Below, piece by piece: positions 12,223 through 16,580 of a stretch of 36,254 nt of DNA. Positions within the stretch are counted from its first letter, which is position 1; the number at the start of each line of letters is the position of its first letter. The stretch covers positions 1-36,254 of the forward strand of contig CAINCQ010000037.1 of assembly GCA_903847095.1 (NCBI GenBank). The letters run 5' to 3'. The notes under the pieces were generated by a model, which ran no database searches, had not been told where the DNA came from, and saw only the letters and a list, made by a program, of their open reading frames with translations. Source of the DNA: an uncultured bacterium (GTDB lineage: Bacteria > Patescibacteriota > Minisyncoccia > Minisyncoccales > UBA5738). The translations under genes were made by a program, and so were the position numbers.

Positions 12223-12255
12223 AAATTTGCCTCGGTTAAACCTCTGCAAATCTAA
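12223..12255. repeat. 33-bp repeat element, copy 1
   Basis: This stretch matches 15566-15597 with one substitution and one single-base gap over 33 bp. Both copies have the same orientation and lie directly behind the stop codon of a minus-strand gene, before a hairpin. Inside, ATTTGC and GCAAAT are inverted. Function unknown. Confidence 0.75.
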
Positions 12256-12258
12256 TTA

Positions 12259-12576
12259 CTAGATCATTCCAAACGTTGATGCCAAAATAAAATAAAGTAA
12301 CATATATTCAAAAAGCCCCAACACCGATAGAATTATTCCCGTCCGCGCCAACATCTTCTCCTCCAACTTCAGACCCTTAATCCCAAAAAAAATACCCAAA
12401 ACATCAAAAATCCAAGCCGTATAGAAAATAAATATAAATATGTAATCAACGATGATTACGGAATACCATGAAACTGCATATTTCATGACGATTAATCTAC
12501 CGATAAAAAGTAAAAAAGAAACTAAACCAATAGTTCCAAAAACTACGCTTGCTTTACCTATTTGCTTGTTATCCAT
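12259..12576 (-). CDS. Small four-helix membrane protein, DUF4190-like
   Basis: The preferred ATG at 12576 gives 105 residues with about three to four membrane segments: ASVVFGTIGLVSFLLFIGRL, SVIIVDYIFIFIFYTAWIF, and a C-terminal GIILSVLGLFEYMLLYFIL. The spacing of GIFFGIKGLK and ARTGIILSVLG resembles DUF4190, small membrane proteins of unknown role. A TTG start at 12597 would overlap the previous gene and is less likely. The gene follows the large surface protein, with its ATG 5 bp inside the end of that gene, so the two are coupled. It may help anchor, assemble or export its neighbour, but that is an inference from position. The 33-bp repeat and a hairpin follow. Confidence 0.6.
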   Translation of the reverse strand: MDNKQIGKASVVFGTIGLVSFLLFIGRLIVMKYAVSWYSVIIVDYIFIFIFYTAWIFDVLGIFFGIKGLKLEEKMLARTGIILSVLGLFEYMLLYFILASTFGMI

Positions 12577-12580
12577 TTTT

Positions 12581-15439
12581 TTATTGCTTAGCCTCAAAGT
12601 TAAACCAAACCTTTAATTGTTTCCCCTGCCATTCGTTGCCAATGGATTCCAGAAATTTGAATTTATAAACCAGCTTTTTTGTTTGCCAAGGCAAAAGGAT
12701 TTTTTTAATTTCGGGCAGGTATTTTGTTAAATTAATTTTATCTTGTTTAAGCTCCGATAACAATAACGGCGGATTTTTGTCGCCAAGGTCGGCCGCAACC
12801 TTATCAAGCATATTTTCTCCGTCGTATTCAAGTTTGGTTACCGCGATTTGCTCCTCAAGATTTTTGTTAATAACCGAATTCAATTCTCCCCCGCCGGTTC
12901 CGGTAATACCGTAAACCCGGTAATACGGCTGGCCAAGGTAGACAATTTGGCTAACGGTCATGCCATTTTTGGTTTCGCCCACGGTTAAGATGGTGGCATC
13001 CTGGCAATTAGGTTGAACTTTAGCCAAAGAATCGGCTTGGGGGCAAATATATACCTGGCCTTTGCCGGTGGAAGGAATGTAGAGGATTTTATTGTTTTCG
13101 ATTACATCCGGCCAATTATCCATATGCATAAACGATTTATTTTCTTTTGTATCGGTATCGGCAACTAAATCGGAAAGATCAATATCGGTCTGGGATAACT
13201 CAAAATGCGTATTTACCATTCCAATTAGCTTTAAGTCGTTTTTAGAGATTGTTACCCATTCATTAGTATTTTGAGCGTATTTTGGATCACGTAAGTCAAC
13301 TCCGGTGTACAACATTGGTATAAACGTTCCGTTAATCATAATCATTTTCCGACCCAGCCTTGTGTCCTCCTTAACTTCGAAATTCCAGCTTATTGATTCT
13401 TCGCGGCCATAAATATCTTTTACCGTTAATTTCATTTTTCGATTTCCCTGCTTGGAAAACCATTTAGCCAAATCAACATTATTGGTAACGATTGGTTCGT
13501 CGTCGTCAAACTGCCAAGTGTAAGTCAATATTTCTTCTTTGCTTCGATTTTTCGCGCCTGCCTGAAAGTTAACCGGCTGGTTGACGCCGATCGAACCCGG
13601 AAAAATGGTAAAGAACGGATTGATCGCGCTAGGCAAGCCATCGGCAAAATTATCAACATCAATCATTTGAACATCGTTATTTTTTTTCACATTAACCAGT
13701 CTCAAATATTGATTTTTATTTTCATAAGAAGGATCAAGCGCCACCTGAGAAAGGGCTTCGGTTTCTACAACATCGTATTTATTATTCCAGTTTTGTTTAT
13801 TTTCACTATGAGTATGTCCAGCCATATTTAATGTTTGGCAACTTGAATTATTGACAAATAAATTTTCAATCGGAGGAAAGGCGCCTATGAAAAATCCGCC
13901 CAGAACATCCCTTAATGGATAGTGGGTTAAAAGCACAACTTTCTTTCCCTCACAATCATTTAATTCGTCTCGCAACCAAGTATGAGTATCAACCGGGTCA
14001 ATCGCGTTGGTCGGCCAAAAAAGCTGCAAATCTTCTTCGCGCGAAGCAAAATCAAGCGAAACAAATTTGATATTATCATAGGTAAAAGCATAATTTTGGT
14101 GGTAATTTGTCCCCTTTGCCTGCCGATTGAAGGTGGGAAAAAGATTAACCAATTTTTGTTCGTTTACCGCATTATCGTCCCAAAAAACCTGGTTGAAATA
14201 CTGATCGCCTAATGGTTCTCCATTCTTCCATTGATCCCCTATCCCAAGAGTTACAAAAGCGGCTGATCGCGCGTTGGGATCCCACATGGGCCGGGAAACG
14301 TACGGAATAATATCGTGGTTTCCGATTATTGGAATATAGGGAACGACAAGCTGGTTTAAAATTTGGCGGGCCTTGAGGAATTCGGAGTATTCGGCAGTGT
14401 CAGCAATATCGCCAAGGATAACCACGAATTTGATGTTATTGCTTACCGTGTGCGCGTTAATCCATTCGATCGAACGGTTAAGCCTATCGGTCATAAAATA
14501 ATCTTGACCGGGTTCGTTATCGGTTTCACCGTAGCCGGGTTTCCCATAGTCGGGGATGCCCCATCCGATGTGAAGATCGGTAATGACAGCGAAGGTCCAA
14601 TCCGGTTTTTCGGTTAGGATTTTGTAATTAGAGGGTGGCTTAATTAACGGATAATTATCGGTTTCACCGTTTAATGCTTGAGGTTTCTCGCCAACACCAT
14701 CGCCGTTATCGTCGGTTCCATCATAATAAAGGTAGTAATTTCCCAGTCGGTTTTTGTGATACCCTCCGGAATATTGGTAATTGATTTCTTCGCCGGTTTT
14801 CCAGAAATTGTAGTAGGGCCAGCCGGATCCGGCAAAGATCTTGGAATAAAAATCGTTGAGGTAAATATTGTTGGCCGAGCTTTTTCTTGTCGCGCCCGAA
14901 CCGGAATCGAATGCTTCTTGGAGATATAATCCGTAATCATTGGTTTCTTTGAAAATATTCCCGGTCATTTCGTTGAGATAAGAATACAAACTGATATGGA
15001 TCCCATATTCGTTCCCGGCAAATTCATTGTTGGTTATTTTATTTTCGGTGCTAAAGTATTTGATCGCGATCCCCGACGCGTTGGTTGCGCCTTCGATCGT
15101 TAAACCCGAAATCGTTGTCCGATTCCGGTTCAATTCAAAAACATTCTTATTGGGATCGGTGGCAGAAATAAAAACATGGCCTGACCCGTTTTGCGACTTG
15201 ATCGTCAAATCACTCGTATTTACCAAAATATTCTCCGTATAGCACCCATCGCGGACAATAATGATATCGCCGGAATTAACGGACTCAACGGCTTGTTGGA
15301 TCGTGGAATAATTGTCGGGCACATAAACCGTATTCGCCGCGCCCGCGCGTTCCGCGCCAAAAAACATCAAAACCGCGGCAACGACCGCGACAATTATTCT
15401 TATTGTTTTTTTATACTTTGGCGATAAAAATAAATACAT
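12581..15439 (-). CDS. Large secreted protein: beta-helix, calcineurin-like phosphoesterase, PKD-like and TasA/camelysin-like domains
   Basis: From the ATG at 15439 the product has 952 residues. A signal peptide (about 1-34, ending AERAGA) leads into VYVPDNYSTIQQAV and a NosD-like right-handed beta-helix to about 265. A calcineurin-type metallophosphoesterase follows, with all metal-site motifs: DLH (288-290), GDIAD (343-347), GNHD (373-376), THYP (505-508) and GHTH (541-544). A PKD-like domain covers about 611-690 (TYTWQFDDDEP). The C-terminal 90 residues, with SIGNEWQGKQLKVWFNFEAK, resemble the end of TasA/camelysin filament proteins. A domain with paired cysteines and YGITGTGGG lies between. 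The phosphoesterase could act on phosphorylated sugars or nucleic acids outside the cell. The earlier TTG start is rejected because it falls on the -35 box. Confidence 0.8.
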   Translation of the reverse strand: MYLFLSPKYKKTIRIIVAVVAAVLMFFGAERAGAANTVYVPDNYSTIQQAVESVNSGDIIIVRDGCYTENILVNTSDLTIKSQNGSGHVFISATDPNKNVFELNRNRTTISGLTIEGATNASGIAIKYFSTENKITNNEFAGNEYGIHISLYSYLNEMTGNIFKETNDYGLYLQEAFDSGSGATRKSSANNIYLNDFYSKIFAGSGWPYYNFWKTGEEINYQYSGGYHKNRLGNYYLYYDGTDDNGDGVGEKPQALNGETDNYPLIKPPSNYKILTEKPDWTFAVITDLHIGWGIPDYGKPGYGETDNEPGQDYFMTDRLNRSIEWINAHTVSNNIKFVVILGDIADTAEYSEFLKARQILNQLVVPYIPIIGNHDIIPYVSRPMWDPNARSAAFVTLGIGDQWKNGEPLGDQYFNQVFWDDNAVNEQKLVNLFPTFNRQAKGTNYHQNYAFTYDNIKFVSLDFASREEDLQLFWPTNAIDPVDTHTWLRDELNDCEGKKVVLLTHYPLRDVLGGFFIGAFPPIENLFVNNSSCQTLNMAGHTHSENKQNWNNKYDVVETEALSQVALDPSYENKNQYLRLVNVKKNNDVQMIDVDNFADGLPSAINPFFTIFPGSIGVNQPVNFQAGAKNRSKEEILTYTWQFDDDEPIVTNNVDLAKWFSKQGNRKMKLTVKDIYGREESISWNFEVKEDTRLGRKMIMINGTFIPMLYTGVDLRDPKYAQNTNEWVTISKNDLKLIGMVNTHFELSQTDIDLSDLVADTDTKENKSFMHMDNWPDVIENNKILYIPSTGKGQVYICPQADSLAKVQPNCQDATILTVGETKNGMTVSQIVYLGQPYYRVYGITGTGGGELNSVINKNLEEQIAVTKLEYDGENMLDKVAADLGDKNPPLLLSELKQDKINLTKYLPEIKKILLPWQTKKLVYKFKFLESIGNEWQGKQLKVWFNFEAKQ

Positions 15440-15565: not shown

Positions 15566-15597
15566 AAATTTGCCTGGTTAAACCTATGCAAATCTAA
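15566..15597. repeat. 33-bp repeat element, copy 2
   Basis: This is the partner of 12223-12255 (32 of 33 positions present, one substitution). Here the element is extended by CCTGGTTA (15573-15580) and TAACCAGG (15595-15602), an exact inverted repeat that would make a second stem. It lies between a stop codon at 15603 and the terminator at 15517-15544. Confidence 0.75.
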
Positions 15598-15602
15598 CCA
15601 GG

Positions 15603-16106
15603 TTAGAAAGCCGTTATTATAAAATCACCAACGAATTTGCTCAAAGCGATAACAACAACCGCAATGCAGAGATGTTCCAATATCGGAAATACCGGTTTCC
15701 TATTTTGGCTGATGGCGATGAAATAGCTGAAAATCGCCAACGTGGCAAGACCATAGGCAATGGCGATATAGGTTGCCAACGCCAACGGAAAAACCGCGAT
15801 AATAGCGATAAATCCAAATGAAACGATCAGTCGCGTAAAAAAATTAGTACCGGTTTTCAACCAGACTTTTCGCGCCGTCATTCCTTCCGATTCCTGGTAA
15901 ATGTGGATTCCCAGCGAATCGGAAATATTATCGGCCAGCGCGATGACCAGCAAACTTCCGATAATCGCCAACCTTGGATTTTCCGAGGCGTTAAGCCCGG
16001 TAATAATAGCTAGGCTGGTGACAATTGCCGATGTACCGCCAAAAATGTAGTTAGTGATCTCAATTTCTTTACCCCGGAAAAATTTTAATAATTTCTTGAT
16101 TTTCAT
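15603..16106 (-). CDS. VIT1/CCC1-like integral membrane protein
   Basis: From the ATG at 16106 the product has 167 residues. The N-terminal ITNYIFGGTSAIVTSLAIITG and the following PRLAIIGSLLVIALADNISDSLG match the start of VIT1/CCC1 family proteins, which move iron or manganese across membranes in plants, fungi and bacteria. Five hydrophobic segments are visible. HIYQESE in the first loop corresponds to the region where family members carry acidic residues, but the typical cytoplasmic metal-binding domain is short here, so transport is not proven. A TGGTATAAT extended -10 ends 6 nt before the ATG, which fixes this start over a longer frame to 16178 and suggests a leaderless mRNA. A strong terminator follows, so the gene is transcribed alone. 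Confidence 0.76.
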   Translation of the reverse strand: MKIKKLLKFFRGKEIEITNYIFGGTSAIVTSLAIITGLNASENPRLAIIGSLLVIALADNISDSLGIHIYQESEGMTARKVWLKTGTNFFTRLIVSFGFIAIIAVFPLALATYIAIAYGLATLAIFSYFIAISQNRKPVFPILEHLCIAVVVIALSKFVGDFIITAF

Positions 16107-16112
16107 TTTTGG

Positions 16113-16121
16113 ATTATACCA
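16113..16121 (-). promoter_or_regulatory. Extended -10 promoter of the VIT1-like gene
   Basis: TGGTATAAT on the minus strand (TATAAT at plus 16113-16118), 6 nt before the ATG. The TGn extension compensates for the lack of a recognisable -35. Confidence 0.7.
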
Positions 16122-16140
16122 TCTTTTTCCGATACCCGCC

Positions 16141-16580
16141 GTGGAGATCCAATCTCCACAAGCTTCAGGCCTAAACAAGGCTTACGCAGTTGGCACAGAT
16201 TCAAGGCAAAGCGCGAGGGTGCGCCGAAGCCGTACGATTTGTACGGCGACCGGTGCTACATTAATTTAATTTTGTCGATTTAGCAGAATCTATTTAGCCT
16301 GAATTCTAGGCGCGAGGAGCGTAATGTACCCTGTGCGGTACATTAGCGACGAGCAACAACGAAGGCAGGCTAAATAGATTCTGCCCTGCGGGAACATTGA
16401 AATTCGGCCATTTTCCGCTTCACTCCTCCTCAATGTACCGCACAGGGTACAATTTCGTCGTCGTTCATTGAAACTGACCGGACTTGAATGTTCTAAATCG
16501 ACGAAATTAAGTTAATGGGGCACCAACACCCAAACACTTTAACGCAGAAGATGGGGCAACTTCGTAAGCCTTGCCTAAGG
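16141..16580. repeat. Non-coding island of nested inverted repeats
   Basis: No gene fits this stretch. Exact or near-exact inverted pairs are: 16141-16148 with 16152-16159 (8 bp); 16170-16192 with 16557-16580 (imperfect); 16252-16283 with 16493-16524 (about 32 bp, imperfect, GGTGC...GTCGATTTAG); 16283-16301 with 16366-16384 (19 bp exact, GCAGAATCTATTTAGCCTG); 16325-16344 with 16432-16451 (20 bp exact). Local hairpins are 16229-16247 (GCCGTAC-GATTT-GTACGGC) and 16322-16345 (TAATGTACC-CTGTGC-GGTACATTA). The right outer arm reaches the last codons of the next gene. It could be a transposase-less element, a structured RNA, or a multi-hairpin end to the polysaccharide operon. Confidence 0.75.

Follow-up and report, generated by a model that had tools for sequence, protein, structure and literature searches.

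The window analyzed here is the whole contig C37, 36,254 nucleotides long, of a 1.35 Mb genome of an uncultured Patescibacterium. The gene under study (12581..15439, minus strand) runs from an ATG start codon at position 15439 to a TAA stop codon ending at 12581, and its translation predicts a secreted multidomain phosphoesterase of 952 amino acids. Its end is overlapped by a gene for a small membrane protein of about 110 amino acids (12259..12597, minus strand), which is found at the same position in all six CPR loci examined; these small proteins showed weak similarity to one another, and some of the relatives matched DUF4190. The small membrane protein is the best candidate partner of the phosphoesterase. 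A direct repeat of about 33 bp (AAATTTGCCT..GGTTAAACCTnTGCAAATCTAA; positions 12223-12255 and 15566-15597) flanks exactly this two-gene module. No other copy of its 22-bp core was found in the 1.35 Mb genome when up to three mismatches were allowed, and none was present at the locus of a genus-mate.

First, the predicted protein was examined for export signals. Hydropathy analysis showed that residues 8-35 form the sole hydrophobic segment of the 952 residues, and inspection by eye placed after this segment an AGA-A site of the kind usual for signal peptidase I. The first 35 or so residues (15335..15439, minus strand) are thus a predicted signal peptide with possible cleavage after AGA. The protein has no recognisable anchor, whether transmembrane, LPXTG or other. 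The genus-mate (G001; same locus as L063, RA.bin35) carries an orthologue that is about 57-58% identical, aligns over residues 5-952 and lies at the same chromosomal place. With the predicted signal peptide and this full-length match at the same place, the gene is judged to be real.

The N-terminal part of the mature protein, residues ~36-279 (14603..15334, minus strand), was assigned to a NosD-type right-handed beta-helix plus linker. The Pfam NosD profile matched residues 101-241 (E 7e-9, 35.8 bits against a cut-off of 23.6), and the AlphaFold2 (AF2) model showed regular, short strands of mostly high pLDDT at residues 37-173, so that profile and fold agree. Further along, residues ~610-690 (13370..13612, minus strand) form a PKD domain. 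Pfam PKD_4 matched residues 616-682 (E 1.7e-9, 38 bits against a cut-off of 27), and the model of this domain has an Ig-like fold that matched the PKD domains of collagenases in Foldseek (TMt 0.75). In the AF2 model of all 952 residues the beta-helix, the PKD domain, most of the phosphoesterase and the D1-D2 region described below came out well, and the C-terminal tail poorly. Other members of the same taxonomic family and order have related beta-helices that are joined to a GDSL-type hydrolase (twice in G002), to an LCAT-type lipase (G007) or to a peptidoglycan-binding domain (G079). Because relatives bear other extracellular hydrolases, namely the GDSL-type and LCAT-type enzymes, these fusions suggest that the beta-helix is a carrier with exchangeable enzyme cargo.

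Between the beta-helix and the PKD domain lies a calcineurin-type metallophosphoesterase domain, residues ~280-609 (13613..14602, minus strand). Pfam Metallophos (PF00149) matched residues 282-515 (E 1.9e-11, 45.2 bits against a cut-off of 21.5), and the motifs of this family, DxH, GD, GNHD/E, H and GHxH, are present in order. The preliminary description had held that all five metal-site motifs were intact, and this was borne out: the eight metal and catalytic residues (D288, H290, D344, N374, H375, H506, H542 and H544) are kept in every relative that covers them, including CPR bacteria, Chloroflexi, Chlamydiota and several archaea. With the Pfam matches above their cut-offs, its identification of a beta-helix, a calcineurin-type phosphoesterase and a PKD domain was also confirmed; signal peptide, motifs and Pfam domains together support its view that the protein is exported and that a multidomain surface carrier bears an enzyme domain whose catalytic signature is intact.

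The class of the enzyme was assessed from its fold. GpdQ is a glycerophosphodiesterase of Enterobacter and Rv0805 a cyclic nucleotide phosphodiesterase, and both act on phosphodiesters. The best PDB matches to the phosphoesterase model were GpdQ (E 2e-7) and Rv0805 (E 2e-6), and enzymes of this class took Foldseek ranks 1-5 (E 2e-7 to 3e-6); AF2 confidence was uneven within the domain. Because these nearest folds both belong to phosphodiesterases, the domain is probably a phosphodiesterase, an assignment made from fold rank at 12-19% identity in the listed matches. Likeness to the two enzymes lies in the metallophosphoesterase fold and the full set of metal-site motifs; however, GpdQ and Rv0805 are stand-alone enzymes, whereas the present domain is predicted to be exported and is fused to surface domains. 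Scores against the curated families stayed far below their cut-offs, at 29.1 bits against 400 for NCBIfam SpdA and 13 against 225 for CpdA (PRK11148). The reading of the domain as an enzyme is well supported by the sequence.

Residues ~727-853 (12881..13261, minus strand), which had been overlooked in the preliminary description, make up a conserved region that we call D1-D2 (IDLS..ILYIPSTGKG / VYICP..GETKNGM..GTGGG). No Pfam model matched this region, which is thereby defined here as a conserved region lacking one. The AF2 model showed it to be rich in strands, with pLDDT mostly 75-92. D1-D2 recurs in CPR bacteria and archaea. A sample of 286 other genomes of the phylum gave matches in further surface proteins in 13 of them at E<=0.01, though certain of these matches were marginal. 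The window protein has both halves of D1-D2 fused, whereas three relatives of the same order (G050, G010 and G035) encode the second half (VYICP...GGG) on its own, in a gene that lies two genes downstream of the one for the phosphoesterase. The phosphoesterase protein of G050 ends in ...KILFIP and that of G010 in ...KILFLP; the one of G035 is shorter.

The preliminary description had regarded this domain order as unknown elsewhere. A scan of genome contigs with the single protein found no relative; relatives came from an alignment-based query of GTDB contigs, and the six genomes that contain the archaeal loci were then searched. The data showed that the trunk of phosphoesterase, PKD domain and D1-D2 is present in Methanophagales (L064, L065 and L067) and Bathyarchaeota (L066), described as methane-cycling archaea, with about 30-35% identity over some 600 residues. 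In the Methanophagales locus L067 a NosD beta-helix precedes the trunk, as in the window, although its assembled frame contains one stop codon; in L064, L065 and L066 no beta-helix was detected before the trunk. The claim of an unprecedented order therefore fails. The C-termini after D1-D2 differ, however, since the archaeal proteins carry further PKD or other domains there and none has a TasA-like tail. Within the phylum the trunk is rare: among 380 sampled genomes only the genome studied here carried it, and five other matches were to the PKD domain or D1-D2 alone. Among this genome and its close relatives, six genomes (its own included) have the trunk. On sequence grounds, then, the architecture is a recurrent archaeal and CPR one with a genus-specific tail; the order of its parts is not new, and just the last 100 residues are peculiar to the genus. 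Searching the literature for an earlier description of such a protein returned nothing relevant. The analysis names a hitherto unnamed surface-phosphodiesterase architecture common to archaea and a few ultrasmall bacteria.

The history of the phosphoesterase domain was also investigated with a tree of 12 sequences, several of them on long branches. The domain and that of the genus-mate grouped with Methanophagales L065 and Bathyarchaeota L066 (support 96/94), and the sequences of Parcubacteria L068 and Patescibacteria L069 stood apart. A single CPR clade for the domain was rejected (p-AU 0.0066). Because the domain groups with archaeal relatives and not with those of other Patescibacteria, the tree suggests transfer of this surface-enzyme gene between archaea and Patescibacteria, in one direction or the other.

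Next to D1-D2 is the C-terminal tail, residues 854-952 (12584..12880, minus strand), ending GNEWQGKQLKVWFNFEAKQ. A search of 247 genomes of the order with a tail profile found it in this genus only. Three matches beyond the genus (L149, L151 and G516) were all at noise level: L149 is a deacetylase-like protein by eye, the match in L151 was limited to a short internal stretch, and the match in G516 falls in a broken frame. The tail had been likened to the biofilm fibre proteins TasA and camelysin. Against PF12389 it gave E 0.05 and 13.8 bits, and that of the orthologue E 0.0044 and 17.3 bits, both under the cut-off of 22.5; in genome-wide scans with this profile the tails scored E 0.027 (own genome) and 0.002 (genus-mate). 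The alignment is in register with the end of the profile, positions 134-191 of 196 (to 193 across scans), covers the C-terminal ~45-58 residues of the tail and includes a GNxxQG...F.A.Q motif common to both. Nothing in the tail corresponds to the first two thirds of the domain. Of a complete TasA domain, with its beta-sandwich, N-terminal donor segment and SipW-type signal, only the C-terminal profile part was matched, and this rules out the tail as such a domain. The resemblance claimed earlier thus holds as an in-register match that beats shuffled sequences, and it is weak and below the cut-off; we regard it as suggestive.

Two explanations of the tail were weighed against these data. According to the first, which we rate at a little under an even chance, the tail is an unrelated beta-hairpin whose GNxxQG motif is a product of chance or convergence; other modules would then retain the protein, or it would be released. 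This would account for all tail matches lying under the curated cut-offs. The AF2 model of the tail, with a strand, helices and a terminal hairpin, was of a confidence too low to decide its fold (pLDDT 55.6), and Foldseek with this model returned no significant fold match and no TasA. Neither of the two outcomes that the preliminary description had named as refuting, a C-terminal fold unrelated to TasA/camelysin or a misfolded or inactive metal site, was thus reached. BLASTP of the tail against a TasA-like protein of the same genome also gave nothing. However, both orthologues match PF12389 in register and right at the C-terminus, and CPR TasA-like proteins also have GNxxQG at their ends. The second explanation sees in the tail a shortened TasA/camelysin unit by which the enzyme would dock on TasA-type fibres that the same cell produces. 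In TasA fibres the C-terminal residues are one of the subunit interfaces (PMC9674648), which makes such docking conceivable. A profile built from 11 CPR TasA-like C-termini ranked both tails first and second, above 10,000 shuffled sequences, at 14-15 bits, and hhalign gave E 2e-4 over 33 columns. Contig C9 of the same genome (L060, 6000-25900) encodes a cluster of several TasA/camelysin-like proteins and two SipW-like signal peptidases, the latter assigned by eye; within the phylum, PF12389 was detected in 23 of the 192 genomes sampled. A TasA-like gene of G050 (L027, 652-1223, plus strand), with a frameshift in the assembled sequence, lies about 90 bp from the phosphoesterase module and convergent to it. 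Nevertheless, the hhalign probability was 48%, the tail model was poor and brought up no TasA, and a C-terminal part in one genus is all that matched, so that we consider docking on fibres rather unlikely. Still less probable is the combined scenario, in which the Patescibacterium took an archaeal surface phosphodiesterase of the Methanophagales/Bathyarchaeota type and added a part-TasA domain that plugs onto its own fibres; were it true, the result would be an enzyme-decorated matrix fibre. The protein offers a testable case of an enzyme possibly hung on TasA-type fibres.

Secretion signal, catalytic signature, domain order, archaeal kinship and the conserved small membrane-protein neighbour can all be read from the sequence. 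Activity, substrate, surface retention and a possible attachment of the tail to TasA-type fibres are inferred, and we think it fairly probable that the protein is a secreted, surface-retained phosphodiesterase. It would be exported by the Sec route and, outside the single membrane, function as an enzyme of the GpdQ/Rv0805 class, a phosphodiesterase with a dinuclear metal centre. Because no transmembrane, LPXTG or other anchor is recognisable, the beta-helix, the PKD and D1-D2 Ig-like modules and possibly the C-terminal tail would hold the enzyme in the surface layer or matrix; alternatively, the protein may be released. It would most likely cleave small phosphodiesters outside the cell (glycerophosphodiesters, and nucleotides in cyclic or linear form) or else phosphodiester groups that surface glycans carry.

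From the gene neighbourhood, a role in editing or remodelling the polysaccharide on the cell's own surface was considered; the enzyme might, for instance, cut its phosphodiester links or its phosphorylated substituents. In both members of the genus the gene order is secA, hpf, murB, wzy-type ligase, wzz, small membrane protein, phosphoesterase gene and capD, which places the phosphoesterase gene between capD/flaA1 and wzz/wzy ligase within a Wzy-dependent glycan locus; the beta-helix is, in addition, a common glycan-binding fold. At the genus level a surface-glycan role is as compatible with this neighbourhood (CapD, Wzz, Wzy ligase) as is the nutrient scavenging proposed in the preliminary description. 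However, the relatives in G056, G010 and G035 lie outside glycan loci, and the gene may be tied to the glycan genes by position alone, so glycan editing appears doubtful. A general tie of the module to glycan synthesis by gene order was rejected, as relatives outside the genus are not in glycan loci.

Several further features of these loci were observed. In the window the product of an extra gene before capD (15603-16178) looks by eye like a VIT/CCC1-type membrane protein; it had no Pfam match, and the gene is absent from this place in G001. An intergenic stretch of about 400 bp lies at 16180-16560, in which inverted copies around CCTGTGCGGTACATT were noticed by eye. In G056 the start of a second, nearly identical phosphoesterase gene lies at a contig end (L026, 11733-12329), as a tandem copy or an assembly artefact, and in G035 a caspase-domain (Peptidase_C14) gene (L032, 2012-3094, minus strand) lies near the phosphoesterase module.
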